Assembly (NCBI RefSeq): GCF_003945765.1
Contig: NZ_CP027712.1
Location: forward strand, 1,860,001 to 1,924,000
Direction: 5' to 3'
DNA: 64,000 nt
DNA from: Pseudomonas chlororaphis subsp. chlororaphis
GTDB taxonomy: Bacteria; Pseudomonadota; Gammaproteobacteria; Pseudomonadales; Pseudomonadaceae
Part shown: piece by piece, positions 34,226-49,530 of the stretch
Layout of the letters: every line of letters starts with the position of its first letter
How positions within the stretch are numbered: position 1 is the stretch's first letter
Program-made: the position numbers and the translations under genes
The notes under the pieces: model-generated
Told to the model about the DNA's origin: nothing
What the model saw: the letters and a program-made list of their open reading frames with translations, nothing else
Databases searched by the model: none

Positions 34226-35641
34226 TCAGGCGGGGAGCAGTTGCGCGACCGCCAGGCCGATCTTGTTGATCGCCTGTTCGATCTTGCGGTTGGGCACGCC
34301 GGCAAAGTTCAGCCTGAGGCAATTGCGGTACTTGCCGGCCGCGGAAAAGATATTGCCGTTGGCGATCTGGATGTCCTCGGCTTCCAACAGCCGGTTCAGG
34401 GTGTAGGTGTCGAACTCGTCCGGCAGCTCCACCCACAAGGTGAACCCGCCCTGGGGTTTGCTGACCCGGGTGCCTTCCGGCAGATAGCGGCTGACCCACT
34501 CGGTCATCAGGTCGCGATGGCGCTGGTACTGTTTGCGCATCCGCCGCAGGTGCGGCAGGTAGTGACCCTTGGCAATGAATTCGGCCACCGCCAGCTGTGG
34601 CTGGGTAGCGGTGGTGCCGGAGCCGACGTATTTCATGTGCAGCACTTGCGGCAGGTAACGTCCCGGGGCGATCCAGCCGATCCTCAGTCCTGGCGCCAGG
34701 GTTTTCGAGAACGAACTGCACAGCAGCACGCGCCCGTCGTCGTCGAATGACTTCAGGGTGCGCGGCCGCGGATAGCGGAACGCCAGGTCGCCATAGATAT
34801 CGTCTTCGATGATCGGCACGTCGTAGCGCTGGGCCAGGCGGATCATCGCGCGCTTGCGATCGTCCGGCATGATGTAGCCCAGCGGGTTGTTGCAATTGGG
34901 CGTGAGCTGGATGGCCTTGATCGGCCATTGTTCCAGGGCCATTTCCATGGCTTCCAGGCTGATGCCGGTGACCGGGTCGGTGGGAATCTCCAGGGCCTTG
35001 AGGCCGGCGGCCTTGAGCAGCTGGATGATGCCGTGGAAGCAGGGGGAGGCGATGGCCACGATGTCGCCGGGTTCGCACAGGGCGCGGATGGCGATGGACA
35101 GGGCTTCCTGGCAGCCGCTGGTGACGACGATTTCCGCGGGCGTCAGGCGGCAACCGGAATCGACGCCGAGGCGGGCAATCTGCTCGCGCAGGCTCAGCAC
35201 ACCTTGTAGGTGGTTGTATTGCAGGCTAGGGCTGTCGCTGCGCCGGCTGATCCGCGCCAGGGCGGTCAGCAGCGGCTTGAGGGTCGGCGCGGTGGTGTCG
35301 GGCATGCCGCAACCCAGCTGAATGGCATTGGCGTTCTGCTCCTGGCGCATCAGGTCCTGCACCAGGTCCCACTGGGAGATATCCACAGGCCGCAACGACG
35401 GCCGTCCCATCTTCGGCAGCTCCGGCAAGCGCCGGCCGGCCGGGACGAAATAGCCCGACTTGGGCTTGGGGATAGCCAGTCCCGAGCTTTCCAGAACCCG
35501 ATAGGCCTGTTGCACGGTGGTGAGGCTGACGCCGTGCTCGAGGCTCAGGGCCCGCACCGAAGGCAGACGCTCCCCCGGTCCGTATAACCCCTGCTCAATG
35601 CGGCTGCTGATGTATTCGGCGAGATTCAGGTATCGAGTCAT
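34226..35641 (-). CDS. MocR-type (GntR plus aminotransferase) transcriptional regulator
   Basis: A 471-aa protein with an N-terminal GntR winged helix (residues 1-70: EYISSRIEQGLYGPGERLPSVRALSLEHGVSLTTVQQAYRVLE) fused to a fold-type I aminotransferase-like domain. The PLP lysine is Lys313 in SSFSKTLAPG, and the PLP-binding Asp region is PIIEDDIYGDLAF. MocR proteins use PLP or its adducts with amino acids as effectors. It is divergent from the 35.9-46.5 kb cluster, with inverted ATCTGT/ACAGAT repeats between them, which makes it a candidate regulator of that cluster. Similar MocR genes are also common in pseudomonad core genomes, so the link is unproven. Confidence 0.92.
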   Translation of the reverse strand: MTRYLNLAEYISSRIEQGLYGPGERLPSVRALSLEHGVSLTTVQQAYRVLESSGLAIPKPKSGYFVPAGRRLPELPKMGRPSLRPVDISQWDLVQDLMRQEQNANAIQLGCGMPDTTAPTLKPLLTALARISRRSDSPSLQYNHLQGVLSLREQIARLGVDSGCRLTPAEIVVTSGCQEALSIAIRALCEPGDIVAIASPCFHGIIQLLKAAGLKALEIPTDPVTGISLEAMEMALEQWPIKAIQLTPNCNNPLGYIMPDDRKRAMIRLAQRYDVPIIEDDIYGDLAFRYPRPRTLKSFDDDGRVLLCSSFSKTLAPGLRIGWIAPGRYLPQVLHMKYVGSGTTATQPQLAVAEFIAKGHYLPHLRRMRKQYQRHRDLMTEWVSRYLPEGTRVSKPQGGFTLWVELPDEFDTYTLNRLLEAEDIQIANGNIFSAAGKYRNCLRLNFAGVPNRKIEQAINKIGLAVAQLLPA

Positions 35642-35661
35642 GCGGGGGACTGTAGCGACTC

Positions 35662-35729
35662 ATCTGTCGTATAAAAAGTTACAGATTTCACTTTTTTTGA
35701 AAATTTTTCAGGGCGAAAAGGCAATCTGT
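35662..35729. promoter_or_regulatory. Repeated ATCTGT half-sites in MocR/cluster divergent region
   Basis: ATCTGT (35662-35667) and ACAGAT (35681-35686) are inverted with a 13-nt AT-rich spacer. A third copy, ATCTGT, is at 35724-35729. The whole 35642-35916 gap is AT-rich compared with its surroundings. This arrangement of inverted plus direct half-sites fits a MocR operator overlapping divergent promoters. A TATAAG at 35757-35762 could be a -10 for the rightward genes. Confidence 0.5.
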
Positions 35730-35916
35730 ACTGAGAAAAATCATCCGGCGTGTACCTATAAGACAGTGGTTGCCTTTGGGAAGATGGCCCGCATCGCGCT
35801 GTACTGGTTGTTCTTAAATACAGTTGCGGCGCAATTCAGAGTCCCCCCGGGCAACGTGTAACGGGCTTCCCCCTCAGGCTACTTTAGACGATGACTTCTC
35901 AAGGAAGAGCAGGGTA

Positions 35917-36921
35917 ATGACGGCAAGGATCAAACTGACTCCGCAGATGGCTGAGTACGAGCAGAAATTCACCGACGGTGGTGAGGTTCGCTGGCTTCCT
36001 TATTTGATGTATTTCCATCCTACCGACCACCGTTCGGAGGTGGTCAATACAGATGCCTCGGGCTTCCGCTATTCGGAGTTGCTGGGCATACAGTATTCGG
36101 TGGTCAATAGCCGCCACGCTAAGAGCGTGCGGGTGCTGGCCGGCAGCTCGACCGTGTTTGGCATCGGTGCCAGCTCGGATGCCTGGACACTGCCTTCGCG
36201 CCTGGCCGAGAACGATCCGGACAGCAAACCCTGGATCAACTTCGGCGGACGCAGCTTCAACTCGACCCAGGAACTGACACTCTTCACCCTTTATCGTCAT
36301 TTGCTGCCCAAGGTCGACGAGATCGTGCTGTTTTCCGGGTTCAACAATCTGGGGCTGGCACGCCAGCCACACAGCAGCCGTGGCGAACATGGCGCTTTCT
36401 TCAACTGCAATCAGTTCTTCGACGCCATGCGTCCGGAGACTCAGGCCCCCAAGCGCGGCATGTTCCGCGCCTTGCTCGGCAAGGAACAGGAAGAGCCGAC
36501 GCCCGAGCCGCCACCGACCATGGAAGAGCAGATCGACTACGCCGCCGACCTGACCCTGCGTCACCTGGATACCTGGCGCGCACTGGCGGCCGACATGGGC
36601 GCCAAGCTGACCTTCATTCTGCAGCCGCTGGCCGGCTGGGTCCGGGAAAAGGGTTGCGACGAGGAAGAACAGCTGTTCGCCGAGCTGGATCGCGCCGGCA
36701 GTTTCAGCGAGGTCTATGGCGATATCCTGCAGCCCAGCGTCTGCGAGGCCTATGCCGCCCGCCTGCGCGAAGGCGCACAGAAGATGGGCGTGCGTTTCGT
36801 GAACATTACACCACTGCTGTCCGAGGCCCTGCGGCCTGAACAGTGGTTGTTCGTCGACCGTATTCACTTCACCGACCAGGGGAACGATTTCGTCTCGAAA
36901 ATCATCCTCGATGTTCTTTAA
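35917..36921 (+). CDS. gvgA: SGNH/GDSL-hydrolase-like protein, first gene of gvg cluster
   Basis: A 334-aa protein starting at ATG 35917 (AGCAGGGTA upstream). It has SGNH-type blocks: VRVLAGSSTVFGIGAS (residues 72-86, nucleophile Ser78), a block with FSGFNNLGLA, and the terminal catalytic dyad Asp314/His317 in VDRIHFTDQGNDF. No signal peptide is present, so the enzyme should be cytosolic. In other pathways such enzymes are esterases, acyltransferases or amidases. The substrate here is unknown; release of a protecting or carrier group is one possibility. It is followed after 11 nt by the 28-aa ORF. Confidence 0.82.
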   Translation: MTARIKLTPQMAEYEQKFTDGGEVRWLPYLMYFHPTDHRSEVVNTDASGFRYSELLGIQYSVVNSRHAKSVRVLAGSSTVFGIGASSDAWTLPSRLAENDPDSKPWINFGGRSFNSTQELTLFTLYRHLLPKVDEIVLFSGFNNLGLARQPHSSRGEHGAFFNCNQFFDAMRPETQAPKRGMFRALLGKEQEEPTPEPPPTMEEQIDYAADLTLRHLDTWRALAADMGAKLTFILQPLAGWVREKGCDEEEQLFAELDRAGSFSEVYGDILQPSVCEAYAARLREGAQKMGVRFVNITPLLSEALRPEQWLFVDRIHFTDQGNDFVSKIILDVL

Positions 36922-36932
36922 AGGAGTCTGCC

Positions 36933-37019
36933 ATGAGTTACATCAAGAGCTTGTTCCAACGCCTGTTCGGCAAGAAGAAAAAGAAGAAGCCGGACTCTTC
37001 GATCTACCCGATGTTCTGA
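36933..37019 (+). CDS. gvgB: 28-aa peptide GvgB-like, conserved small ORF
   Basis: A 28-codon ORF with a strong Shine-Dalgarno (AAAGGAG, 36920-36926) 6 nt before its ATG. The peptide has an amphipathic start (MSYIKSLFQRLFG), a run of six lysines (14-19) and the tail PDSSIYPMF. At 87 nt it matches one of the two essential ORFs below 150 nt described for the WH6 gvg cluster. It could be a peptide scaffold carrying the growing amino acid, or a small partner protein. It resembles no enzyme. The position, ribosome site and lack of overlap with other genes argue that it is translated. Confidence 0.82.
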   Translation: MSYIKSLFQRLFGKKKKKKPDSSIYPMF

Positions 37020-37106
37020 TCTCGACACCCGACGTCATTGCTTGCCGATGACTGAGGGCCGGCAATGGATTGCCTTGGTCTCCAACCTGGAAGGGAAGTA
37101 AACAGT

Positions 37107-39284
37107 ATGTGGCGCCAGTTTTATCGATCAGTCAGCAATCCCGAGAGCTTTCTGGGGGATGTCAGTATTCGGCGCCTGATGGGCCTGGCCGCACCGGGTG
37201 AAGCCGGTGCGGGTGGCCTGGCCGGGTTGCGGGTACAGATCGAGCACTGGCGTGACGAGCAGGCCCGGGCTTACCGCGAACTGGCCAGCCAGGCCGCGGA
37301 GCTGGGCAACCAACGGGAATTCGCCGAGGCGCTGCTGGCGCACTCGGCGCCACTGGCCTCGGTATTGGGCTGCTGGTTGCAAGGCATGAGCGCCCCCGGT
37401 GTCTTCGAGGACAGCGCGCAGCTCAAGCTCATGGAGCTGCTGGCCCACGACGTGGGCGTCGGGCGGCCCCTGGCATCGCGCGCCGATCACTTCAAATCGC
37501 TGTTGGTACAGTCGGGGCTGACCGCCTATGCGGTTTCGCCGTTCGAACTTTCCACGCTCCCCGGCCTGCCTGACGAACTGTTCGAATTACCTGCATTGCT
37601 GCAAGCGGTCAGCCGCCGCAGCGATGCCTTTGGCGACACCCTGTGCGGCATCGATTATGCCTGGCGTGCCCTGGGGCTGAGTCCATGGTGGTCGGTGCTG
37701 GATGCGCAGCAGCTGGACGTCCGCCGGCTCGACCTGAACCAGCTGGATGAAACCGCGGGCGACAGTTCGGCGCTGGAAATCTCCCAGTGGGTCTGCGAGC
37801 AGGTCGCCAGCCAGGGCAGCCTTCGCCGCCTGCAACTGGAGGCGGGCGCCCAATGGTTGTTCGCGGCCCTGAAAACCTTCAACGAACGATTGCTGGCGCA
37901 CTGCCGGGCCGCGGTATCGCCCGAGCGCCTGATGGGCAAGATGATCCAGCGCATGGCCCGGGCCGGCGCGGTCTATCACCAGGATTACAAGATGGAAGGC
38001 CGCAGCCTGGCGCAGTGGCTGCGTGAGGCCCAGGTCGACCCCGTGCCGCTGTTGGAAATGCTTTCGCGCAGCCGCCTGATCGTGCCGGGCAATGCCGAGA
38101 AGAGCCTGCTGGTCAATACACTGGTCGCGCCGAACGGGCGCATGTTCCGGATTTTCAGCGAGGCTGACCTGAGCGTCATCCGCAAGTGGATCGATGGCCT
38201 GTCCGGCCCGATCCAGCGTGCGGAAGCTGCCGAAGAACCAGCGCCAACCCCTTGCAATGCAGTGGTTCGGCAGGTACTGGGCGAGAGCATTGCAGAGCAG
38301 GGCCAGTGGCCCAAGAGCTTGCGCGAGGCCTATTTCGTCTTGCAGGGCAGGGCGCTGGCGCCGCGCACCCAGGCTTTTGCCCAGGCTTATGTGACCCGTT
38401 GGCTGGAACAGTCGCGGCGCTCGCTGCAAAGCTCCGAACGCACTTTGCCTGAAGCCTGGAATGTCGGCGTCTTGCGCGAATGGTTGCTGGACAAGCATGA
38501 CCGCCATGGCCAGGAGTTCGAAGAAAGCGACCCGGCGGCCATGCCGTCGCGCGAAGAAATCGTCGACTCCACCCTGCAACTGGCACCGCTGACCCTGATC
38601 GACGGCGCCTGGCTCCAGGGTTTCACCGACCTGACGCTGGCCTCGTCCCATGTCGGCTATGCGCTGTTCCAGACCTATTGGGATGAGCTGGGTAACGGCT
38701 CCTATGCGTTGAACCATCCGAAAATCTACCGCGACGGCCTGCGCCAGATGGGCCTGGAGCTGGCGCCTACCGGTGCCCGCGAGTTCGCCGAGGATGAGCG
38801 GCTGCGCGAGGCGTCGTTCCGCTTGCCGGTCTACTGGCTGTGCCTGGGCAAGTTGCCGGTGACCTTCATGCCGGAAATCCTCGGCATGAACCTGGCGATG
38901 GAGCTGTCGGGGGTGGGCGGCAGCTATCGCTCGGCCCGGCGCTTCCTCAGGCACTACGGCTTCAGCACCGCGTTCGTCGACCTGCACAACACCATCGATA
39001 ACGTCTCCACCGGGCATTCGGCCTGGGCGGTGGACGCCATCGACGCCTACATGCGCCAGGTCGCCGCCTCGAAACCGGCGGAACTGGCAGAGCACTGGCA
39101 GCGGGTCCGCGTCGGCTACGAGTCCCTGGCACCGCAGCCGGACCGCCTGACGTCCTGGTTGCGGCGCCTGGGTATCGGCTCCGCGGGTGCGGTGCTGCCC
39201 CGGAGCAAGACGCGGGGCGAGGACCAGGCGCTGTTTCATCACGAACCTATTGTCCCTGCCGTGCCGGTGGGCGTAACGGCCTGA
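37107..39284 (+). CDS. gvgC: Haem-oxygenase-like di-iron (HDO) protein with large N-terminal region
   Basis: A 725-aa protein starting at ATG 37107 after GGAAGGGAAG. Residues from about 500 onward match the iron-containing redox enzyme (HDO) fold. The metal-ligand candidates are Glu527 and His537 (DELGNG...NHPKIY), Glu590/Glu599 (MPEILGMNLAMEL), and His627, Asp631 and His637 (LHNTIDNVSTGH). HDO enzymes carry out N-oxygenation, C-C cleavage or desaturation with O2. That fits either making the N-O bond or the vinyl group of an aminooxyvinylglycine. The first ~450 residues are helical and not recognised. It is by far the largest protein of the cluster. Confidence 0.82.
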   Translation: MWRQFYRSVSNPESFLGDVSIRRLMGLAAPGEAGAGGLAGLRVQIEHWRDEQARAYRELASQAAELGNQREFAEALLAHSAPLASVLGCWLQGMSAPGVFEDSAQLKLMELLAHDVGVGRPLASRADHFKSLLVQSGLTAYAVSPFELSTLPGLPDELFELPALLQAVSRRSDAFGDTLCGIDYAWRALGLSPWWSVLDAQQLDVRRLDLNQLDETAGDSSALEISQWVCEQVASQGSLRRLQLEAGAQWLFAALKTFNERLLAHCRAAVSPERLMGKMIQRMARAGAVYHQDYKMEGRSLAQWLREAQVDPVPLLEMLSRSRLIVPGNAEKSLLVNTLVAPNGRMFRIFSEADLSVIRKWIDGLSGPIQRAEAAEEPAPTPCNAVVRQVLGESIAEQGQWPKSLREAYFVLQGRALAPRTQAFAQAYVTRWLEQSRRSLQSSERTLPEAWNVGVLREWLLDKHDRHGQEFEESDPAAMPSREEIVDSTLQLAPLTLIDGAWLQGFTDLTLASSHVGYALFQTYWDELGNGSYALNHPKIYRDGLRQMGLELAPTGAREFAEDERLREASFRLPVYWLCLGKLPVTFMPEILGMNLAMELSGVGGSYRSARRFLRHYGFSTAFVDLHNTIDNVSTGHSAWAVDAIDAYMRQVAASKPAELAEHWQRVRVGYESLAPQPDRLTSWLRRLGIGSAGAVLPRSKTRGEDQALFHHEPIVPAVPVGVTA

Positions 39285-39300
39285 ACATCAAGGAGTGTCC

Positions 39301-40344
39301 ATGTCTCTGGTCAATGTGCACAACGAGTGGGATCCGCTGGAAGAAATGATCGTCGGTGTCGCCCAGGGCGCACAGGTGCCGCGACCTGATCGCGGGCTGT
39401 TCGCCCTGGACTACAGTGAGCAGCACGATTACATCGAGGAGATTCCATCCGGCCCCTATCCGCAGCAGGTCATCGAGGAGGCCAGCGAGGACCTGGACGC
39501 CTTTGCCGCCTTTCTGCGTTCCCACGGGGTTATAGTGCGGCGGCCGGACGTCACTGATCATCGCGCGGTATTCGGCACCCCAGCCTGGAAAACCGACGGC
39601 GAATACAACTATTGCCCACGGGATGTGCTGCTGCCCATCGGCCAGACCATCATCGAGGCGCCGATGGCGTTGCGCAGCCGTTACCTGGAGCCGTTCGCCT
39701 ATCGCCGGCACCTGGCCGAATACTTTGCCAGCGGCTCCAACTGGATCTCCGCGCCCAAGCCGCAGCTGCTGGACAGCACCTACCGGATCAACCCCAAGGA
39801 CGGCTCGATCATTGCCAATGACGAGCCGATCTTCGACGCCGCCAACGTAATCCGCATCGGCGAGGACATCCTCTATCTGGTTTCCCGCAGCGGCAACGAA
39901 CTGGGCTGCCAGTGGTTGCAGCGGGTGCTGGGCGAGCGTTACCGGGTGCACCCGGTGAGCGGCGTGTACGACGGCACGCACCTGGATACCACCATCACCG
40001 TGGTCCGCCCGGGGCTGGTGGTGCTGTGTCCGGAGCGTATCCGCAAGGACCAGGTGCCGGCGCTGTTCAAGAACTGGGACATCATCTGGGCGCCGGAAAT
40101 GGTCGACACCGGCTATTGCTGGTCCTACCCGCGCGCATCGATCTGGCAGGGCATGAACTTCATCATGGTCAACCCGGCCCTGGCGGTGATCAACGACCAG
40201 CAGGTGCCGCTGATTCGCGCCCTGGAGAAACACGGTATCGATGTGGCGCCGCTGAAAATGCGCCATGCCCGCAGCCTCAGTGGCGGCTTCCATTGCGTGT
40301 CGGTCGACATTCGTCGCCGCGGCACCCTTGAAGACTATCGTTGA
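39301..40344 (+). CDS. gvgD: Glycine amidinotransferase-family enzyme
   Basis: A 347-aa protein starting at ATG 39301, 5 nt after AGGAG (39291-39295). It is an L-arginine:glycine amidinotransferase homologue with the catalytic set Asp179 (IFDAANV), His227 (DGTHLDTTI) and Cys332 (SGGFHCVSVDIRR). The family transfers the arginine amidino group to an amine, making a guanidino compound and ornithine. 4-Formylaminooxyvinylglycine has no guanidine, and in WH6 two central genes of the cluster are reported as dispensable. This gene and the next are therefore likely to make or export a different product. Confidence 0.88.
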   Translation: MSLVNVHNEWDPLEEMIVGVAQGAQVPRPDRGLFALDYSEQHDYIEEIPSGPYPQQVIEEASEDLDAFAAFLRSHGVIVRRPDVTDHRAVFGTPAWKTDGEYNYCPRDVLLPIGQTIIEAPMALRSRYLEPFAYRRHLAEYFASGSNWISAPKPQLLDSTYRINPKDGSIIANDEPIFDAANVIRIGEDILYLVSRSGNELGCQWLQRVLGERYRVHPVSGVYDGTHLDTTITVVRPGLVVLCPERIRKDQVPALFKNWDIIWAPEMVDTGYCWSYPRASIWQGMNFIMVNPALAVINDQQVPLIRALEKHGIDVAPLKMRHARSLSGGFHCVSVDIRRRGTLEDYR

Positions 40345-40358
40345 GCGGAGCCTGGGGC

Positions 40359-40985
40359 ATGCAGAATCTGGACTACTACGCCGTCATCCTGTTCGCGATT
40401 TCCACCTGCGTGACGCCGGGGCCGAACAACGTGATGCTGATGTCCTCCGGGGTCAACTTCGGCATCAGCCGCACCCTGCGCCACGTCGCGGGCATCAACA
40501 TCGGCTTTCCACTGATGCTGATCGCGGTGGGGCTCGGCGCCGGCGCGGTATTCCATCGTTATCCCAGCCTGCACGACATCCTGCAGGTGGTCGGTGCCCT
40601 GTACATGCTGTACCTGGCCTACCGGATCGCCACGGCGCCCACGGTCGATCTCGACGACCAGGGCGGTCGCCCGCTGGGCTTCACCGGTGCCGCGCTGTTC
40701 CAGTGGGTCAACCCCAAGGCCTGGATCATGGCGGTGGGCGCGGTCCTGGCCTACACCACACCGGTCGGTTCCTACAGTGCGCAGATCCTGCTGATCGCCT
40801 TGATCTTCTTTCTCTTCGGCTCGCCCTGCTCGATGGTCTGGGTGCTGTTCGGACGTTATTTGCGGCGCTTTCTCAGCGAGCCGAACCGGCTGCGGCTGTT
40901 CAATATTTCAATGAGTGTGTTGTTGGTGGTGTCGTTGATTCCGGCATTAAAAAGCCTGCCGGTCTCAAGTTGGTTGCACGGATGA
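40359..40985 (+). CDS. gvgE: LysE/RhtB-family amino acid exporter 1
   Basis: A 208-aa protein starting at ATG 40359 with GCGGAG upstream; an overlapping TTG at 40341 is less likely. It has six predicted spans and the LysE signatures STCVTPGPNNVMLMSSGVNFG and FQWVNPKAWIMAVGA. It is closely similar in motif to the third LysE copy at 45882. It probably exports the product, or a by-product, of the cluster across the inner membrane and so protects the producer. Confidence 0.9.
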   Translation: MQNLDYYAVILFAISTCVTPGPNNVMLMSSGVNFGISRTLRHVAGINIGFPLMLIAVGLGAGAVFHRYPSLHDILQVVGALYMLYLAYRIATAPTVDLDDQGGRPLGFTGAALFQWVNPKAWIMAVGAVLAYTTPVGSYSAQILLIALIFFLFGSPCSMVWVLFGRYLRRFLSEPNRLRLFNISMSVLLVVSLIPALKSLPVSSWLHG

Positions 40986-41014
40986 CGGACTGTGCACAGA
41001 CACAGGGAATTTCC

Positions 41015-41050
41015 ATGGATTGGCATGAAGCTATGAGGATGAGCGTTTAA
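41015..41050 (+). CDS. Possible 11-codon leader ORF before the carbamoyltransferase gene
   Basis: ATG 41015 is preceded by AGGGAA with 5-nt spacing, and the reading frame (MDWHEAMRMSV) ends TAA at 41048-41050, immediately abutting the next ATG. It could couple translation into the carbamoyltransferase gene. Such a short ORF may arise by chance, so it is only a candidate. Confidence 0.3.
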   Translation: MDWHEAMRMSV

Positions 41051-42892
41051 ATGGCTACTTACGTATTAGGGATTTCGGCGTTCTATCACGACAGCGCAGC
41101 AGCGTTGGTGAAGGACGGGGTGCCGGTGGCGGCGGCCCAGGAAGAGCGCTTCACGCGGGTGCGGCACGACGCGGCGTTTCCGGCCAATGCCATCAAGTAC
41201 TGCCTGGACGCCGAGGGTATCGGCCTCGATGAGCTGACCGCCGTGGTCTACTACGAAGACCCGCAGGAAAAGTTCTCGCGGATGATTTCCTCCTTCGCCA
41301 GTGGCGGCATCAGCGGCGCGCGCACCTTCATCAGCACCATGCCGGAATGGATCCGCTGGAAGCTCAATGTGCTCAAGTTCATCGACGAGAAGCTCGAGGA
41401 ACTGGGGCGTGGTACCGGACCGCTCACCATCGCCTCGCAGCATCACCGCTCCCATGCCGCGGCAGCGTTTTTCCCGTCGCCGTTCGAGCAGGCGGCGGTG
41501 CTGTGCATCGACGGCATCGGCGAATGGCATTCGACCACGATCTGGAAGGGCGACGGTTCCAAGCTCGACCTGATGAACTCGATTTCCTATCCGCACTCGG
41601 TCGGCCTGTTCTACTCGGCGTTCACCTATTACTGCGGCTTCAAGGTCGACTCCGGCGAGTACAAGCTCATGGGCCTGGCGCCTTACGGCCGGCCGATCTA
41701 TGCCGACAAGATCCGCAAGGAATTGATCAACATCCGCGCCGACGGTTCCTTCACCCTGAACATGAAGTACTTCGAGTACCTGCGTGGCGAGCGCATGGTC
41801 GGCGAGGCGTTCGAGGAACTGTTCGGCGGTCCGGTGCGCAAGCCGGAGAGCCCGATCACCCAGCGCGAATGCGACCTGGCGGCCTCGGTACAGCAGGTGA
41901 CCGAGGAGGTGGTACTGGGGCTGGCCACCGCGGCCGTGCGGCAGACCGGTTACCGCAACCTGTGTCTGGCCGGTGGCGTGGCGCTCAACTGCGTGGCCAA
42001 CGGAGTGCTCAGCCGTTCCGGACGTTTCGACGCGATCTGGATTCAACCCGCGGCCGGCGACGCCGGTTGTGCCCTGGGGGCGGCCATGGACTATTCGGTC
42101 AAGCGCACCGGGCGCCCGCACCTGGGCAGCAAGAAGCTCGACGCCATGAGCGGCAGCCTGTTGGGGCCGGGCTTTGGCGATGAAGAGATCCAGGCGTTTC
42201 TCGACGCCAACCAGTATCCATACCGGCGCTTCGAGGGTGCCGAGCTGTATGACGAAACTGCGCGGCACCTGGCCGACGGCGCCGTGGTCGGCTGGTTCCA
42301 GGGACGCATGGAGTTCGGCCCGCGAGCCCTGGGTGCGCGCTCGATCCTCGGCGATCCACGCAATCCCGAGATGCAGCGCACCATGAACCTGAAGATCAAG
42401 TACCGCGAATCCTTCCGGCCCTTTGCCCCGGCGGTGCTGGACGAGGACGCCCAGGTCTACTTCGACATCTGCGAGAAGAGCCCGTACATGTTGATGGTTT
42501 CGCAGGTCACCGACTCGATCAAGACCGAGGAATCGCGCAAGCCGGGTGGCCCTGAGCGTGGCCTGGGCAGCATCAACTCGATCCGTTCGCAGCTGCCGGC
42601 GGTGACCCACGTCGACCTGTCGGCGCGGGTGCAGACAGTGACCGAAGAAAACAACGCGCCGTTCACCCATCTGCTGCGCAGTTTCAAGAAGCGCACCGGC
42701 TGCTCGGTACTGGTCAACACCTCGTTCAACGTGCGCGGCGAGCCGATCGTGTGCAAGCCGGAAGAAGCCTACGCCTGCTTCATGCGCACCGAGATGGATG
42801 TGCTGGTACTGGGCAACTTCATTCTCGAGCGCACGACCCAGCCGGAGTTCGTCGAAGAGGTCGACTGGCGCAACGAGATCCCGCTGGACTGA
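41051..42892 (+). CDS. gvgF: NodU/CmcH-type O-carbamoyltransferase
   Basis: A 613-aa enzyme. The N-terminal Kae1/HSP70-like domain shows VLGISAFYHDSAAALV, EERFTRVRHD, HHRSHAAAAFFPSPFEQAAVLCIDGIGEW and LCLAGGVALNCVANG. The C-terminal YrdC-like carbamoyl-adenylate part shows VGWFQGRMEFGPRALGARSIL and NTSFNVRGEPIVC. The family uses carbamoyl phosphate and ATP to carbamoylate a hydroxyl. Since the end product carries no carbamoyl group, it may install a leaving or protecting group (for example on a homoserine-type hydroxyl) that is later lost; that is inference. It abuts a possible 11-codon leader ORF. Confidence 0.92.
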   Translation: MATYVLGISAFYHDSAAALVKDGVPVAAAQEERFTRVRHDAAFPANAIKYCLDAEGIGLDELTAVVYYEDPQEKFSRMISSFASGGISGARTFISTMPEWIRWKLNVLKFIDEKLEELGRGTGPLTIASQHHRSHAAAAFFPSPFEQAAVLCIDGIGEWHSTTIWKGDGSKLDLMNSISYPHSVGLFYSAFTYYCGFKVDSGEYKLMGLAPYGRPIYADKIRKELINIRADGSFTLNMKYFEYLRGERMVGEAFEELFGGPVRKPESPITQRECDLAASVQQVTEEVVLGLATAAVRQTGYRNLCLAGGVALNCVANGVLSRSGRFDAIWIQPAAGDAGCALGAAMDYSVKRTGRPHLGSKKLDAMSGSLLGPGFGDEEIQAFLDANQYPYRRFEGAELYDETARHLADGAVVGWFQGRMEFGPRALGARSILGDPRNPEMQRTMNLKIKYRESFRPFAPAVLDEDAQVYFDICEKSPYMLMVSQVTDSIKTEESRKPGGPERGLGSINSIRSQLPAVTHVDLSARVQTVTEENNAPFTHLLRSFKKRTGCSVLVNTSFNVRGEPIVCKPEEAYACFMRTEMDVLVLGNFILERTTQPEFVEEVDWRNEIPLD

Positions 42893-42926
42893 TCGCTCAC
42901 TCACTTTTTATTCAGGAGACAAGGCC

Positions 42927-43070
42927 ATGCTCAGGTTGCTTTCGTTGTTGATGTTCGCTGTGGTGTTGCTACCGATCGGCTGGGCGCGCCGGATATTCAA
43001 TTCCTCGCGCTTCAGCCAGCGTTTCCATCAAGGCTCGACGGCGTGGGACCACCCGGAAAACACCCGTTAG
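42927..43070 (+). CDS. gvgG: 47-aa small membrane protein, conserved small ORF
   Basis: A 47-codon ORF with AGGAG (42914-42918) upstream of its ATG. Residues 1-20 are hydrophobic (LRLLSLLMFAVVLLPIGWA), followed by a basic stretch (RRIFNSSRFSQRF) and a polar tail, so a single membrane anchor with a cytosolic tail is likely. At 144 nt it fits the second essential sub-150-nt ORF of the WH6 gvg cluster. Small membrane proteins often accompany NodU/CmcH-type carbamoyltransferases in other loci, which suggests a partnership with the preceding gene. Confidence 0.83.
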   Translation: MLRLLSLLMFAVVLLPIGWARRIFNSSRFSQRFHQGSTAWDHPENTR

Positions 43071-43097
43071 GCCGCATAACTGCAAGGGCTCGGATCC

Positions 43098-44420
43098 ATG
43101 TCAACGGTCATCTACAAGAACTTGAATGCCTCACCGATTCTCGCCGTCAATGGCGCTGGGGTCTGGCTTGAGGATGCCTCGGGCAAACGCTACCTCGACA
43201 CGTGCGGCGGGGTAGCCGTTTCCAGCCTGGGACATGGACACCCACGGATCGCCGCGGCCATCGAGCAGCAGGCGAAAAAGCTCAGTTGGGCCCATGCCGG
43301 CAGTTTCACCACGGCCGCCGCCGAGGAGTTGGCGGACCTGCTGGTGGGGGCCTCCGGCGGGTTGGCCAAGGCGCAGTTTCTCTCCGGCGGCTCCGAGGTT
43401 ATGGAGCTGGCGATGAAAATTGCCTACCAGTATCAGTGCGAGCGCGGGCTGCCGGGCAAATCGATCTTTATCTCGCGGCAGCAGAGCTACCACGGCAGCA
43501 CCCTGGGGACCTTGTCGATATCCGGCAACCTGCAGCGTCGCGGGGTATTCGAGCCGTTGCTGGGGGCCGCCGAATTCGTCTCGCCCTGTTATGCCTATCG
43601 CCATCAGGGCGCCGATGAAAGTGACGAGCAGTACGGGACGCGCCTGGCGCTGGAACTGGACGAAAAAATCCGGGCACTGGGCAGCGACAGGGTCGCGGCG
43701 TTTTTCGCCGAGACCGTGGTCGGCTCCACCAACGGCGCGGTGCCGCCGGTGCCGGGTTACTTCCGCAAGATCAAGGCGGTGTGCGAGCGCCACGATGTGC
43801 TGCTGATCCTCGACGAGGTGATGGCCGGCATGGGCCGTACCGGCAGGTTCTTCGCCTACGAGGACGACGGCATCGTGCCGGACATGGTCGCGGTCGGCAA
43901 AGGTCTGGCGGCCGGTTACCAGCCGATCTCGGCGTTGCTGGTCAGCAGCCAGGTGCATGAGGCGATGGCGGGCAACTCCGGGGTGCTGGGCAACGGCCAG
44001 ACCCACGTCAACCATCCGCTGGCCTGCGCCGTTGCGTTGGAGGTGCAGCGGGTCATCGAGGACGAGAACCTGCTGCAGGCCGTGCGCCTGCGCGGCGAGC
44101 AACTGCGCCACGGCCTGCGCGAGTGCCTGGCGCGCTTCGAGCATGTCGGCGATGTGCGCGGACGCGGGCTGTTCGTCGGCGTGGAGTTCGTTCAGGACCG
44201 CGACACCCGCGAGCCCTATCACGGTGGCGGCCGTTACGCCGCGAGCCTCAAGGCGCAGGCGCTGGAACAAGGGCTGCTGATTTATCCGGGCAGCGGAACC
44301 GCCGACGGTGTTCACGGTAACCACGTTCTGTTCGCGCCGCCGTTCATCTCCAGCGAAGCGGAAATCGCCGAAATGGTCGAGCGCTTCACGGCGGTGGTCG
44401 AGGCCTGCCAGCAGGGTTAG
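43098..44420 (+). CDS. gvgH: Class III (omega) PLP-dependent aminotransferase
   Basis: A 440-aa fold-type I aminotransferase with PLP lysine Lys268 (VAVGKGLAAGYQP), PLP-ring Asp239 (LILDEVMAGMGRTG), and the family blocks DTCGGVAVSSLGHGHP and YHGSTLGTLS. It is expected to move an amino group to or from an aldehyde or keto acid intermediate of the vinylglycine pathway, or to act as a beta,gamma-eliminase-like PLP catalyst. The substrate cannot be told from sequence. It follows the 47-aa ORF by 27 nt. Confidence 0.93.
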   Translation: MSTVIYKNLNASPILAVNGAGVWLEDASGKRYLDTCGGVAVSSLGHGHPRIAAAIEQQAKKLSWAHAGSFTTAAAEELADLLVGASGGLAKAQFLSGGSEVMELAMKIAYQYQCERGLPGKSIFISRQQSYHGSTLGTLSISGNLQRRGVFEPLLGAAEFVSPCYAYRHQGADESDEQYGTRLALELDEKIRALGSDRVAAFFAETVVGSTNGAVPPVPGYFRKIKAVCERHDVLLILDEVMAGMGRTGRFFAYEDDGIVPDMVAVGKGLAAGYQPISALLVSSQVHEAMAGNSGVLGNGQTHVNHPLACAVALEVQRVIEDENLLQAVRLRGEQLRHGLRECLARFEHVGDVRGRGLFVGVEFVQDRDTREPYHGGGRYAASLKAQALEQGLLIYPGSGTADGVHGNHVLFAPPFISSEAEIAEMVERFTAVVEACQQG

Positions 44421-44449
44421 CGGGAGGGCGGACCGGGGGTGTTTTCGAA

Positions 44450-45082
44450 ATGTACCAACAGCCAATAGTGGAAAAGACTATGCAGACCATCGAACCATGC
44501 AAGGACAAAGTTCTATTGTCGGTGTGCACCATGGACTGGTGCGATCACGGCGTTGAATTCGCCAAGACGGTTTTTTCCAACCTGGAAGTGTTCTGTTGGG
44601 ACCCGGGCGACCCCTATCCGTATCACCTGGAAGACTGGGAAGGCGACTGGATCATTTCCTATCGTGGCGACTTCATCTTCCCGCCGAGTATCTATCAGCG
44701 GGCCCGCAAGGGCGCAATCAACCTGCACCCGGCGCCGCCCAAGTACCGCGGCCTGGGCAGCCAGCACTACGCGATCTACTACCAGGACGAAACCTACGGC
44801 TCGACCTGTCATCACCTGGCGCCCTCGGTGGACAGCGGCGACATCATCCATGTTGCGCGTTTCAACATCGCCCCGGCGGAAACCGCGTCTTCGCTGCGCC
44901 TGCATGTCGGCGCCTATTGCCTGCAGCAGTTCATCCACCTGTTGACCGACTACATCCTGCAAGGCCGTCCGCTGCCGGTTTCGCCCGAACGCTGGGGCGA
45001 GCGGCTGTACAAGCAGTCCGAACTCAAGCCCTGGATGGAAAAGATCCGGGCCGAAGAACCCGATCATCGCTGCTTCAAGTAA
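44450..45082 (+). CDS. gvgI: Formyltransferase (10-formyl-THF-dependent type)
   Basis: A 210-aa protein with the formyltransferase catalytic triad Asn91, His93 (INLHPAPPKYRG) and Asp128 (PSVDSGDIIH), at the spacing usual for GART/Fmt-type enzymes. ATG 44450 follows GGGGGTG; an alternative ATG is at 44480. It presumably N-formylates an aminooxy (or hydroxylamine) intermediate, giving the formyl group of 4-formylaminooxyvinylglycine. The N-terminal formyl-THF binding part is shorter than in methionyl-tRNA formyltransferase. Confidence 0.9.
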   Translation: MYQQPIVEKTMQTIEPCKDKVLLSVCTMDWCDHGVEFAKTVFSNLEVFCWDPGDPYPYHLEDWEGDWIISYRGDFIFPPSIYQRARKGAINLHPAPPKYRGLGSQHYAIYYQDETYGSTCHHLAPSVDSGDIIHVARFNIAPAETASSLRLHVGAYCLQQFIHLLTDYILQGRPLPVSPERWGERLYKQSELKPWMEKIRAEEPDHRCFK

Positions 45083-45162
45083 CGAGGAGGGATGCCGGCC
45101 CGCGCGGGGCGGCATCCCGGTTGGTAAACCCTGCTCCCGCGACTTCTACGAGAGACCGTCAA

Positions 45163-45792
45163 ATGTTTGATTTATCGAGCTTTGGTGCTGCTATGGCCGT
45201 TTATGTCATCGGAACCGCCAGCCCTGGCCCGGGTAACCTGGCTATTGCCAACACCTCGCTCAGCTACGGGCGTACCCCGGGGTTGGCGCTGGCGGCCGGG
45301 GTCATTTCCGGTTCGTTGTGCTGGGGCGCGATGACGGCCGCGGGCGTCTCGGCCTTGCTGATGTCCAACACCCAGGTGCTGGTCTGGCTGAAGATCCTCG
45401 GCGCCTGCTATCTGTTGTGGCTGGCCTACAAATCCATCCGCAGTGCCCTGAGCTCGAGCGCGGTCAACCTCAACCGCGCCCGGGCCAAACAGAGCCGCAC
45501 GCTGGGGTTCTATCTGCAAGGGTTGGGCATCCACCTGACCAACCCCAAGGCGGCCCTGACCTGGTTCACCGTGACCACCGTCGGTCTCAGCGCCACGGCG
45601 CCATCCTGGGCCAGTTTTGTGCTGGTGGGCAGCTGTGCGGTCGCCGGTTTCGTGATTTTCTGCGCCTATGCCCTGGCTTTTTCCGCGCGTTCGGCGGAGC
45701 CGTTTTTCGTCCGCACGCGCAAGGCTTTCGGCCTGGTCTGCGGCGCGTTCTACGCGATGGTCGCCGCGGGCTTCATCGGGTCCTTGCTGTAA
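45163..45792 (+). CDS. gvgJ: LysE/RhtB-family amino acid exporter 2
   Basis: A 209-aa, six-span exporter. The N-terminal signature is ASPGPGNLAIANTSLSYGRTPGLALAAG, differing from the TPGPNN form of the other two copies, so it belongs to another LysE subgroup. Further motifs are LGACYLLWLAYKSIR and HLTNPKAALTW. The start at 45163 follows GAGAG. It probably shares export of the cluster product with its neighbour. Confidence 0.92.
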   Translation: MFDLSSFGAAMAVYVIGTASPGPGNLAIANTSLSYGRTPGLALAAGVISGSLCWGAMTAAGVSALLMSNTQVLVWLKILGACYLLWLAYKSIRSALSSSAVNLNRARAKQSRTLGFYLQGLGIHLTNPKAALTWFTVTTVGLSATAPSWASFVLVGSCAVAGFVIFCAYALAFSARSAEPFFVRTRKAFGLVCGAFYAMVAAGFIGSLL

Positions 45793-45881
45793 GCGTGGAT
45801 AAGCCTCGCCCGTGGCGATCGCCGGGGCGAAAACAATGACTCAGGGCTCTGTTCGGAGCATGTACTTCTCAGGATGACTGT

Positions 45882-46487
45882 ATGCCGTTGTCGATCGACT
45901 TGTTGTTGGCTTTCGCCTTGTTTGCCTTTGTCACCTCGGTAACCCCCGGACCGAATAACGCCATGCTGCTGGCCTCGGGCGTGAATTTCGGATTCCGCCG
46001 CACGGTGCCGCATATCCTCGGGATCAGTTCGGGGTTCCTGGTGCTGGTGCTGGCTGTGGGCCTGGGCCTGGGCGCGGTGTTCGAGGCCTACCCGGTGCTG
46101 TACAAGGTGCTGCGCTACGTCGGTGCGGCCTATCTGCTGTACCTGGCCTGGAACATCGCCCGTTCCGGGCCGGTGTCCCAGGAAGTCGACGGCAAGGGCC
46201 GGCCGCTGGGGTTCTGGGGCGCCGCGGCGTTCCAGTGGGTCAACCCCAAGGCCTGGGTCATGGCGCTAGGGGCCATCAGCACCTACACGCCGTTGCAGGG
46301 CTACTTTTTCAACGTGGTGGTGATCGCCAGCCTGTTTGCCTTGATCAACGCCCCGAGCGTCGGGGTCTGGGCCGGGTTTGGCAGCGTGCTGCGCAATGTC
46401 CTGCGCGACCCGCGCTGGCTGCGCCTGTTCAACTACGGCATGGCGTTGCTGCTGGTGATTTCGCTGTTCCCGCTGCTGCAAGCTTGA
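45882..46487 (+). CDS. gvgK: LysE/RhtB-family amino acid exporter 3
   Basis: A 201-aa, six-span protein with VTPGPNNAMLLASGVNFGFRRT, VGAAYLLYLAWNIAR and FQWVNPKAWVMALGA. These motifs nearly repeat those of the exporter at 40359, suggesting an old duplication. It follows the second LysE after 89 nt, room for an internal promoter, and precedes the terminator closing the cluster. Confidence 0.92.
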   Translation: MPLSIDLLLAFALFAFVTSVTPGPNNAMLLASGVNFGFRRTVPHILGISSGFLVLVLAVGLGLGAVFEAYPVLYKVLRYVGAAYLLYLAWNIARSGPVSQEVDGKGRPLGFWGAAAFQWVNPKAWVMALGAISTYTPLQGYFFNVVVIASLFALINAPSVGVWAGFGSVLRNVLRDPRWLRLFNYGMALLLVISLFPLLQA

Positions 46488-46556: not shown

Positions 46557-48587
46557 TTACCCCTGGGCGACAGCCGCCACGCCGGGTTCGTGGCGAGTCA
46601 GGCGGCACCATTTGTGCCAGGTGAATTGCAGTTGCAGCAGCGCCGCCCTGGCCATTTCCAGATCCTGTTCCGGCAGTTGCGGCGCCTGTTCCAGGGCCTT
46701 GAGCAGGGCGACGGTCGGAGCATCCAGTCGATCGCTGCGGCGTGGCGTCGGACCGCCTGACTTGAGCAGCGTGGCGATGCTCTGCAGGTAGTGCCCGCGT
46801 TCCACGGCCAGGGCGCCGGTCGCCGCGCCCAGGCTGGCGCGCAGTTGCAGCAGTTCGTCGCCCAGGTCGAGCCCGAGCAGGCCGTTGTCCCAGTGCTGGC
46901 GGCGTTCCTGGGGCAGGCTTTCGGAATAGCGCGCCAGGCGGATCAGGCGGTCGGCCATGCGCCCGCCGAACCAGCTCTCGGCTTGCTCCAGCGGGCGCGA
47001 GGTGAGTTGCGCCAGGTCGAACAGCGAGGCGCGGAACATCCGCCGATAGTGATGTTCGCCGGGGTTGAGGCTGACCAGGCGGAACACCAGGACAGCGATG
47101 CCGACGCCGACCAGGGTGGCCATGGCCTTGTTGAGGAAGTTGGCCAGGTCGTAGGTCATCAGGTTGCCGGGGCCGACGTTGTTGATGAAAAAAATGCAGA
47201 ACGCCGAGGCGATCGGCGCCATCCGCGGCTTGCTCATGCACAGCGAGGCGCAAAACAGCGGCACCCCCAGGCCCACGCACAGCAGCGGGAAACCGTCCCA
47301 ACCGGGTAGCAATCCCAGGCCGACGAAGCCGGCGACCGGCACCGACAGGGCGATGCCCTTGAGAAAGTTGAGGCTGGAGGCGGAAGGGTTTTCCCGGCCG
47401 GCGAACAGGCTCAGTACCACCCCGCAGATCGATACCGCGCCCAGGCCGGAAGGCCAGGCCGAGAGTACCCAGAAGCCAGCCACGGCGAGAAACGCCAGGG
47501 CGCTGCGCAGGCCGCCGAGAATGCCTTGCTCGATATCGCGGTGCCAGGACAGGGCGCCAGGCGCGCCATCGGGCACTCGGGCTTGCTCGACGGCCTGCAG
47601 GGTTTGCGCACTGCGTTCGAGCAGCACCGGCACTTGTGCCAGTTGCATCAGGCACAGATGCGCGTGCTGCGACAGGCTGCGGTCCTGCAGCGCCTCTTGA
47701 AGGCGTGAGGACAGTTGGGCGATGTCTTGCTCGTGGCTGTGTTCCAGGGCCGTGGCCAGCTGTTCGATCAGGGGAGCCACGCTGGCATTCGCCGCGCTGT
47801 CGAGCATCAGCCGCTGGCGGGCCACGCCACGGGCCGCACGCAGCAGGCTCAGCAAGTCGCGACTGAGCACCCGCAGGGCCTGTGAACGTCGCCGTCCCTG
47901 GGGGCCTTCGAACCAGGCGTGATCGCGCTGGGCATCGACCGCCACCAGCTTGCCGAGGGCTTCCAGCAGCCCCTTGCGCTGGTCCTGGCCGATCAGTTCG
48001 GAGGCCGCGGCGCGCATGCCGGCTTGCCACGCGAGCTTGCCCTGGGTGGCCAACGCCTGTTCGACCCGGCGTGGCCAGAGCACGGTGCTGGCGATCGCCG
48101 CGCAGATGATCCCCAGGCTGATTTCCGAACAGCGGGCCACGGCCTGATCGAACACCAGCAGCGGATGTACGGTGGCGGGCAGGGCGACGATCGCTGCGGT
48201 GTAGCCGGCCAGTACGAAACCGTAGGAGGCGTGATTGCGCAGCAGCGAGGCACCGGTGGTGCAGAAGGCCAGCCACAGCGCCATCGCCAACAGAAACAGC
48301 AGGGGCGCCTGGCCGAACAGGCCGATCAGCACGATCGAGGCCACGGCCCCGCTAAAGGTGCCGAGCAGGCGGAAGGCACCCTTGGCCAGGACCATGCCGC
48401 TGCTGGGCTGGCTGACGATGAATACCGTGGTCAGGGCCCATTGCGGCTGCTCGAGGTTGAAGCGAAAGGCCAGGTACAAGGCGATGACCCCGGCGATCAT
48501 GTTCCTGATGGCGAACAGCAGGTCGTTGCGGCTGGGAGCCAGGACGGCCAGCCAGAAATCGGGGATTCGCAGGGCGAGGCTTTTCAT
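46557..48587 (-). CDS. FUSC-family (fusaric acid resistance/YccS-like) transporter
   Basis: A 676-aa membrane protein starting at ATG 48587 (MKSLALRIPDFWLAV). It has the two-halved FUSC design: a first bundle of membrane helices (RNMIAGVIALYLAFRFNLEQPQWALTTVFIVSQPSSGM), a long cytoplasmic helical middle, a second bundle (SALAFLAVAGFWVLSAWPSGLG onward) and a cytoplasmic C-terminus. The family is linked to efflux of aromatic acids. It converges with the gvg cluster, and nothing shows that it handles the cluster product. Confidence 0.88.
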   Translation of the reverse strand: MKSLALRIPDFWLAVLAPSRNDLLFAIRNMIAGVIALYLAFRFNLEQPQWALTTVFIVSQPSSGMVLAKGAFRLLGTFSGAVASIVLIGLFGQAPLLFLLAMALWLAFCTTGASLLRNHASYGFVLAGYTAAIVALPATVHPLLVFDQAVARCSEISLGIICAAIASTVLWPRRVEQALATQGKLAWQAGMRAAASELIGQDQRKGLLEALGKLVAVDAQRDHAWFEGPQGRRRSQALRVLSRDLLSLLRAARGVARQRLMLDSAANASVAPLIEQLATALEHSHEQDIAQLSSRLQEALQDRSLSQHAHLCLMQLAQVPVLLERSAQTLQAVEQARVPDGAPGALSWHRDIEQGILGGLRSALAFLAVAGFWVLSAWPSGLGAVSICGVVLSLFAGRENPSASSLNFLKGIALSVPVAGFVGLGLLPGWDGFPLLCVGLGVPLFCASLCMSKPRMAPIASAFCIFFINNVGPGNLMTYDLANFLNKAMATLVGVGIAVLVFRLVSLNPGEHHYRRMFRASLFDLAQLTSRPLEQAESWFGGRMADRLIRLARYSESLPQERRQHWDNGLLGLDLGDELLQLRASLGAATGALAVERGHYLQSIATLLKSGGPTPRRSDRLDAPTVALLKALEQAPQLPEQDLEMARAALLQLQFTWHKWCRLTRHEPGVAAVAQG

Positions 48588-48707
48588 TGGCAAGGCACAT
48601 AGATAGCTAGCTAATGATTAGTATCGTATCTACTTGCCAGGGAAATTCCAATGAGGATTTTTCCGGGGCCGGAGAAGGTACAGGTGGTGAGGGGAGGGGC
48701 GAAGAAA

Positions 48708-48734
48708 AGGGCCCTGCGCGGATGGCAGGGCCCT
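48708..48734 (-). terminator. Intrinsic terminator downstream of mlaA
   Basis: Perfect 10-bp stem (AGGGCCCTGC / GCAGGGCCCT) with a 7-nt loop. Read on the minus strand it is followed by TTTTCTTC. Confidence 0.85.
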
Positions 48735-48741
48735 GGAGGGA

Positions 48742-49530
48742 TCACTCGGCGATTTGCAGCTTGCGCGATTCGGTGTAGACGTAGCGGACTTTCTCGTATT
48801 CGAACGGCGAGTCCAGCTGGCCATAGCGGAAGCTGGTCTGATAACGCTTGTCGATAGCGCGCAGGACCCAGAGTTCCGGGTGATTCGAGCTGACCTCGGA
48901 CACGTTGAGGAAGTTGATCGCCGACTCGGTGGTGTAATCCACGGCCAATCCGGCGGTGTCGCGAAGGTTCGAGGGCCCGAGGATCGGCAGGACGAAATAG
49001 GCGCCGCCCGGCACGCCGTAGAAGCCCAGGGTCTGGCCGAAGTCTTCGCTCTGGCGTGGCAGGCCCATGCGGGTGGCGGGGTCCCAGAGACCGCCGATAC
49101 CGAGGGTGGTGTTGACCAGCAGGCGGGCGGTGGTGTTCAGCGAGCGCTGGCCCTTGAACTGCAGCAGGCTGTTGACCAGGTTCGGCACGTCGCCCAGGTT
49201 GTTGAAGAAGTTGCTCACACCGGTGCGCAGGAAGCTCGGGGTGATGTAGCGGTAACCGTCGACCACCGGCAGGAACACCCACTGATCGAAGCGGTAGTTG
49301 AAGTGGTACACCCGGCGGTTCCACGACTCCAGTGGGTCGTAGACGTTCAGCGCGTTGAGGGTCGAGCGCTCGAACTCGCGCTGGTCCAGGCCCGGGTTGA
49401 ACTTGAGTCGCTTGAGCGGTTGGGTGAAGCCGTCCCCGTCTGCGACCACGGGTGTTGCGGTCTGGCCGTCGTCGGCATTGGCATAGCCTGCGCAGAACAA
49501 CGCAGCGATGAGCAGGAAATGTTTAGCCAC
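48742..49530 (-). CDS. mlaA: MlaA/VacJ-family phospholipid-transport protein
   Basis: A 262-aa protein starting with GTG 49530 after GGAG. The N-terminus VAKHFLLIAALFCAGYANA is a signal peptide. The MlaA core is clear: NVYDPLESWNRRVYHFNYRFDQWVFLPV, GVSNFFNNLGDVPNLVNSLLQ, NTTLGIGGLWDPA and DFGQTLGFYGVPGGAYFVLPILGPSNLRDT. MlaA sits in the outer membrane and removes surface phospholipids. The usual lipobox is not evident (F before the Cys), so it may be a cleaved, non-lipidated form. It overlaps the upstream hydrolase gene by 8 nt. Confidence 0.93.
   Translation of the reverse strand: MAKHFLLIAALFCAGYANADDGQTATPVVADGDGFTQPLKRLKFNPGLDQREFERSTLNALNVYDPLESWNRRVYHFNYRFDQWVFLPVVDGYRYITPSFLRTGVSNFFNNLGDVPNLVNSLLQFKGQRSLNTTARLLVNTTLGIGGLWDPATRMGLPRQSEDFGQTLGFYGVPGGAYFVLPILGPSNLRDTAGLAVDYTTESAINFLNVSEVSSNHPELWVLRAIDKRYQTSFRYGQLDSPFEYEKVRYVYTESRKLQIAE

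Follow-up and report, generated by a model that had tools for sequence, protein, structure and literature searches.

Which compound is assembled by a row of eleven co-oriented genes, and by what chemistry, is the question raised by positions 35917-46487 of the window, the 64,000-nucleotide (nt) stretch of Pseudomonas chlororaphis subsp. chlororaphis analyzed here (contig NZ_CP027712.1, positions 1,860,001 to 1,924,000), which sits in a single-contig genome of 6.8 Mb. A sequence-only reading had taken these genes for a gvg-type cluster, and comparison with relatives indicates that the window almost certainly holds a complete gvg cluster, predicted to make and export 4-formylaminooxyvinylglycine (FVG, the germination-arrest factor, a herbicidal amino acid that inhibits the germination of grass seeds). 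The cluster itself is already known, since its order and identities match those of the P5A and PCL1601 clusters and it has already been mapped across the genus. As for its chemistry, the excerpts used of the two 2021 papers (PMC8064604, PMC8067088; all papers are cited here from excerpts) describe the FVG pathway as unknown and the roles of gvgA, gvgB, gvgC and gvgG as unclear, and no published pathway or mechanism appeared, by title or abstract start, among the matches listed in the literature search.

Gene content and identity of the cluster

Open reading frames (ORFs), Pfam matches and relatives confirm that eleven + strand genes of the families named beforehand fill this segment, in the order SGNH hydrolase (gvgA), 28-amino-acid (aa) ORF (gvgB), HDO protein (gvgC), amidinotransferase (gvgD), LysE exporter (gvgE), carbamoyltransferase (gvgF), 47-aa ORF (gvgG), class III aminotransferase (gvgH), formyltransferase (gvgI) and two further LysE exporters (gvgJ and gvgK). 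The sequence-only reading had these eleven right and missed a twelfth gene, gvgR (34226-35641, - strand), which lies divergently just outside them and codes for a MocR-type GntR regulator of 471 aa (PF00392 and PF00155). The collinear order of R, divergent, followed by A-B-C-D-E-F-G-H-I-J-K is complete. All ten larger proteins, GvgR included, match Pfam above the family cut-offs, all 12 reading frames are open with the protein lengths of their relatives, and the eight genes that FVG production is reported to need (R, A, B, C, F, G, H and I) are intact, as is an exporter.

Identity to the proteins of Pseudomonas fluorescens P5A, an FVG producer by mass spectrometry (PMC8064604, Table 2), ranges from 64 to 94% (R 80, A 76, B 82, C 64, D 84, E 76, F 85, G 67, H 81, I 94, J 79 and K 87). 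The twelve proteins are 92-99% identical to those of P. chlororaphis PCL1601 (gvgR 98%, GvgI 97%) and 95-100% to those of Pseudomonas sp. NFIX28, the gvgR values for P5A and PCL1601 covering the 80-84% of the protein present in the compared loci. Similarity was therefore neither low nor partial, the outcome that had been named beforehand as speaking against a gvg cluster, in the comparison with P5A and PCL1601; strain WH6 was compared via the papers only. Gene set, order and directions are those of the WH6, P5A and P. chlororaphis clusters, and sequence divergence is the sole difference seen from the latter two. All sequenced P. chlororaphis are reported to carry the cluster (PMC8064604).

The two smallest ORFs, of 87 nt (36933-37019) and 144 nt (42927-43070), are real genes because they are conserved across loci. 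The 28-aa ORF adjoins gvgA (no more than 124 nt away) in 26 of 27 wide loci holding A, C and F, the window included, the exception being a locus (L060) in which gvgA and gvgC are broken by stops; the 47-aa ORF is found in all 11 other loci spanning F to H, and in Photobacterium. The sequence-only reading had stated that two sub-150-nt ORFs are needed and two central genes are not, both in agreement with the reports, in which gvgB and gvgG are required and gvgD and gvgE dispensable for FVG (PMC8067088, PMC8064604).

GvgC and the proposed assembly of FVG

In the pathway that we propose, GvgR would control the operon. A four-carbon amino acid, such as aspartate semialdehyde in its enol form, would be carbamoylated on one of its oxygens by GvgF, with the SxtJ-like GvgG and GvgB (with a DUF5989-like tail) as accessory peptides. 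The carbamoyl nitrogen would be oxygenated by GvgC, a tandem HDO protein with one working diiron site, after which the SGNH protein GvgA would complete the transfer or hydrolysis of the acyl group, CO2 being lost, to leave O-NH2 (aminooxyvinylglycine). GvgH would set an amino group, GvgI would formylate the aminooxy nitrogen, which would both finish the product and shield the cell, and GvgJ and GvgK would export FVG. Of the genes reported as required, only gvgC codes for an annotated oxidase, and apart from the aminotransferase only GvgF adds a new N-C unit. To turn the enol of aspartate semialdehyde into aminooxyvinylglycine, a nitrogen on the oxygen and one two-electron oxidation are needed, so a carbamoyl nitrogen oxidized once, with CO2 lost, balances. 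Taken whole, the gvg cluster with this pathway is an explanation that we consider rather probable; the carbamate N-oxygenation route within it, of which we infer every chemical step, is a tentative and doubtful part.

GvgC (37107-39284, + strand; 725 aa, or 739 aa from an alternative ATG at 37065) is composed of two HDO domains in tandem, the N-terminal fold being kept without His ligands. The protein matches PF14518 at 70.1 bits (cut-off, 28.9), its N- and C-terminal halves align with each other (hhalign E, 5.2e-32), and an AlphaFold model of full GvgC, usable for the N-terminal half only and with 12 close sequences in the alignment, gives a predicted HDO fold match for residues 1-282. Seven candidate ligands of the C-terminal domain (E527, H537, E590, E599, H627, D631 and H637) are invariant in 41/41 rows. 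The same seven places of the N-terminal fold are occupied in the window by D115, R125, T178, R187, N211, E215 and S221, with no His; across the 41 rows, Glu is kept at the E590 place in 25 and no row has His at the H537 place, and an H-x3-E occurs near the alpha3 place in seven. Most likely, the C-terminal domain holds one working diiron site. The spacing of the third His (i+10) was considered as a sign of a broken site and rejected: it is invariant in 41/41 rows, and MboA has i+9. A tandem HDO protein is not mentioned in the searched passages of two HDO papers.

The HDO fold is common to GvgC and the N-oxygenases RohS, HrmI and SznF, although GvgC differs in having two HDO domains, one without His ligands, and no cupin domain was seen in it. 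With RohS and HrmI it shares a DE-x-G-x-G-x5-H stretch (E-x9-H), in weak alignments (E, 0.03-0.06) between which an unrelated chain was ranked; GvgC by itself found no match when its sequence was searched against the PDB. The N-oxygenase-like signal in the catalytic half is weak, and it is because the unrelated chain among the PDB matches weakens the motif evidence that we rate this route no higher. The same weakness favors a different role, possible but far from likely, in which GvgC makes the C=C bond by desaturating a substrate that carries a carbamoyl or aminooxy group, much as the HDO MboA acts on a peptide side chain, and the N-O bond comes from elsewhere, e.g., from a host hydroxylamine supply. 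HDOs such as MboA desaturate (peptide) side chains (PMC13185094), and FVG has a vinyl group. However, the E-x9-H of GvgC is like the aligned stretches of HrmI and RohS and unlike the E-x2-H of MboA (E86/H89), and the cluster is without another annotated oxidase for the N-O bond. The mangotoxin mbo cluster, which codes for MboA and the amidinotransferase-family MboE, resembles gvg in combining an HDO with stand-alone enzymes but differs in its ATP-grasp ligases and tripeptide alkyne product, and the excerpted source mentions no carbamoyltransferase for it (PMC13185094).

The carbamoyltransferase module

Carbamoylation in the proposed pathway would fall to GvgF (41051-42892, + strand; 613 aa), a NodU/SxtI-type O-carbamoyltransferase that carries both domains, PF02543 and PF16861, at full length. 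SxtI is described as working with SxtJ and SxtK, and SxtL as resembling GDSL lipases (PMC2679770). DUF5989, a family of about 50 aa, was matched in 54 of 299 genomes sampled phylum-wide, and the same search gave no match in 99 genomes of the bacterial family, nor in control genomes. In 19 of 20 regions around DUF5989 matches there is a carbamoyltransferase that shares 49-55% identity with GvgF (one copy, where a contig ends, is partial); 3/20 have SGNH genes, and none has a GvgC-like match. Ten distinct SxtJ-like ORFs were recognized by pattern in the DUF5989-selected loci, and all three of the neighbors tested match Pfam SxtJ. DUF5989 is mentioned in no paper in the literature search.

The tail of GvgB (+ strand), a Lys-rich peptide ending in SSIYPMF in the window, connects it to this family: DUF5989 proteins mostly end in FIYTLF and GvgB in SIYP[ML]x, with a variable last residue (F, H, Y or R). 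A first count over 15,013 C-termini found 42 IY[PT][LMVI]x ends; among 26,704 distinct ORF C-termini such ends belong to GvgB-type and DUF5989-type proteins only, against 0.35 expected by composition, a count whose meaning is that no other match occurs among these ends, because DUF5989 or GvgC guided part of the choice of loci. Scored with a profile of the DUF5989 N terminus, the window GvgB, read from the ATG at 36933, outranks every one of 8,318 other small ORFs, and GvgB of the P. fluorescens type falls within the best 0.4%. The N-terminal half of GvgG (+ strand) is hydrophobic, and the WH6 papers predict a signal peptide or transmembrane segment for the peptide (PMC8067088, PMC8064604). 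Its hhalign match to the C-terminal part of SxtJ (E, 4e-4) lies above 100 SxtJ permutations and three LysE controls; there is moderate evidence that GvgG resembles the end of SxtJ. With the GvgB tail carrying the DUF5989 motif and GvgG being like the SxtJ end, both may be carbamoyltransferase accessory peptides, a reading that is partly supported.

Several results weigh against this assignment. GvgB and GvgG match no Pfam family, also when GvgB is set against PF19451 (DUF5989) and GvgG against PF19588 (SxtJ) at E≤1, and the hhalign comparison of GvgB with the DUF5989 profile does not rise above controls. With the DUF5989 N-terminal profile, GvgB of Burkholderia and Photobacterium ranks no better than the top 4-5%, and the MFKRIR type of other loci is not ranked at all. 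For GvgG, permuted DUF5989 columns reached 22.9, near the 24.4 of SxtJ, the probability of the SxtJ match being 34%. Membership of GvgB in DUF5989, which we considered, is not accepted, there being neither a Pfam match nor profile similarity; the shared C-terminal motif is separate evidence.

An unlikely reading of GvgB is that of a scaffold peptide that bears the amino acid during its modification. A tiny peptide with an invariant C-terminal SIYP[ML]x beside modifying enzymes in 26/27 loci would suit such a role, as would the ATP-grasp ligases of some gvg-like clusters (L071, L065), but the gvg cluster is without a ligase to load the peptide, its last residue is variable, and the similar DUF5989 tail accompanies carbamoyltransferases in 19 of 20 regions and GvgC-like proteins in none. 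The accessory role for GvgB and GvgG would bring the module close to the SxtI-SxtJ-SxtK(-SxtL) and DUF5989 loci of Pseudomonadota, to which it is alike in the related GvgF, the common GvgB tail, the likeness of GvgG to the SxtJ end and an SGNH protein (GvgA) where sxt has a GDSL protein (SxtL). It differs in that GvgB is without the DUF5989 hydrophobic stretch, GvgG is far shorter than SxtJ and the HDO GvgC is extra; the likeness was drawn via DUF5989-selected loci, with the sxt proteins taken by description.

Regulation, reusable parts and distribution of gvg genes

Residue conservation in the other enzymes was counted over rows chosen by length (300-480 aa for GvgA), with split or fused copies dropped. 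GvgA (35917-36921, + strand; an SGNH hydrolase/acyltransferase of 334 aa, PF13472) keeps S78, G111, N143, D314 and H317 in 31/31 rows, GvgH (43098-44420, +; 440 aa, PF00202) keeps K268 in 13/13, GvgI (44450-45082, +; 210 aa, PF00551) keeps N91-H93-D128 in 15/15, and GvgD (39301-40344, +, from the first ATG, with a GTG at 39295) keeps H229 and C334 in 15/15; the catalytic roles assigned to these residues are those general to the families. The WH6 authors proposed from knockout transcriptomes that GvgA and GvgC are mainly regulatory, and gvg transcripts drop sharply in the knockouts of gvgR, gvgA and gvgC alike, by factors from the tens to above one hundred in the excerpted rows (PMC8067088). 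We regard this as improbable, given that the SGNH residues are kept in every row and the HDO ligands in 41/41, in clusters with different neighbors, and feedback by a cluster product is proposed in the same paper.

The gvgR-gvgA intergenic region (35642-35916) contains an inverted pair, ATCTGT (35662-35667) and ACAGAT (35681-35686), of which ACAGAT is kept in 8/8 aligned gvgR-gvgA loci and ATCTGT in 7/8; the pair is a candidate GvgR operator. That the cluster is silent in this strain, or yields only an unformylated precursor or another product, is very unlikely: three of three P. syringae-group gvg carriers tested were without FVG under standard conditions (PMC8064604, Table 2), but both P. 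chlororaphis strains tested, O6 and 30-84, make it (PMC8064604), the gvgR-gvgA region of the window is closely similar to those of PCL1601 and NFIX28, and no frame is interrupted.

GvgD owes the name amidinotransferase to the gvg papers, since its Pfam match is to the related arginine deiminase family PF02274, barely over the cut-off (25.4 versus 22.8 bits). Although reported as dispensable, it keeps its active-site residues in all rows; the gene is decayed in one locus (L005) and absent in another (L009). A second, amidinated product is possible.

The exporters GvgE (40359-40985), GvgJ (45163-45792) and GvgK (45882-46487), all on the + strand, match PF01810. Five of 17 GvgI loci (L012, L013, L014, L016 and L018) are without an intact A-C-F-G core in the stretch covered, L013 and L018 being short contig pieces and L016 having unread bases at the junction; GvgJ lies directly downstream of GvgI in all five. 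Retention of the two genes in loci without the core suggests that this formyltransferase-exporter pair serves in self-protection as well as in the last biosynthetic step. Among these loci, that of Prodigiosinella confusarubida (L014, 7261-11268) is a decayed gvg cluster in which gvgA is internally deleted, gvgB partial and gvgH shortened; gvgC to gvgG were not found in it, and gvgR, gvgI and gvgJ look full length. Two alphaproteobacterial metagenome-assembled genomes (MAGs; L016, L018) have a stand-alone GvgI (65-66% identical) and GvgJ (34-38%) amid unrelated genes. In a Ramlibacter MAG (L013, 1822-6227), gvgH and gvgI form one 654-aa ORF and gvgD and gvgE are divergent, a rearrangement; the 2021 survey, in the excerpts used, reported none (PMC8064604).

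Partners vary among gvg-like loci, with TauD-type and ATP-grasp enzymes in L065, a second carbamoyltransferase, ATP-grasp and MFS proteins in L071, and EctB-, N-monooxygenase- and transsulfuration-type enzymes in L078. This fits A-B-C-F as a reusable core, already noted in PMC8064604, with A tied to F. One locus (L061, 4599-7805, - strand) has a gene for an SGNH-carbamoyltransferase fusion of 1068 aa that lies divergently to a GvgC-like one, and no separate GvgA or GvgB was seen in L061-L064. A wider proposal, which we put forward as speculative and unlikely in full, is that GvgA-B-C-F(-G) would be a transferable cassette for making aminooxy groups from the oxygen of an alcohol or enol, via SxtI/J/K-like carbamoylation, N-oxygenation of the carbamate by a dead-plus-live tandem HDO and CO2 loss with O-to-N transfer; in gvg-like clusters it would serve to make different aminooxy compounds or activated carbamates, and GvgD, dispensable yet mostly conserved, would convert the aminooxy product to a dehydro-canavanine by amidination. 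The alm genes of aldgamycin are named as homologs of gvgA, C, F and G (PMC8064604). We found no paper joining aldgamycin with carbonate and carbamoyltransferase. The cyclic carbonate of aldgamycin may reflect the same chemistry as gvg.

Among 398 Pseudomonas genomes (its own included), GvgC gave at least 10 near full-length matches at 63% identity or more, one with an internal stop, and at least 13 further ORFs of 723-781 aa matched over about 405-648 residues at 34-40%; the remaining matches listed, with one exception, fall mostly on the HDO domain. GvgC matches were present in 8 of the 369 genomes sampled from the class (its own included). One gvg cluster, with A, B, C, F, G, H, I and J, lies on a megaplasmid of a marine member of the Vibrionaceae (Photobacterium sp. 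GJ3, pGJ3-1; L077, 7532-15788) near a transposase gene; R, D, E and K were not found in that stretch, and Photobacterium is not among the gvg-bearing genera named in the excerpts of PMC8064604. In the window, a FUSC-family efflux gene and mlaA (46557-49593, - strand) lie directly downstream of the cluster, and PCL1601 and NFIX28 have the same neighbors, so this looks like a P. chlororaphis-type location.

What seems new here is the tandem-HDO reading of GvgC, GvgB and GvgG as likely partners of GvgF, and possible self-protection by GvgI and GvgJ. To our knowledge, a carbamate-derived route to the O-N bond, if true, is known nowhere else. GvgC as a tandem HDO protein and GvgB and GvgG as GvgF partners turn the unsolved assembly of FVG into a short list of enzyme tests and, if the carbamate nitrogen is the aminooxy nitrogen, this would point to the products of uncharacterized gvg-like clusters.

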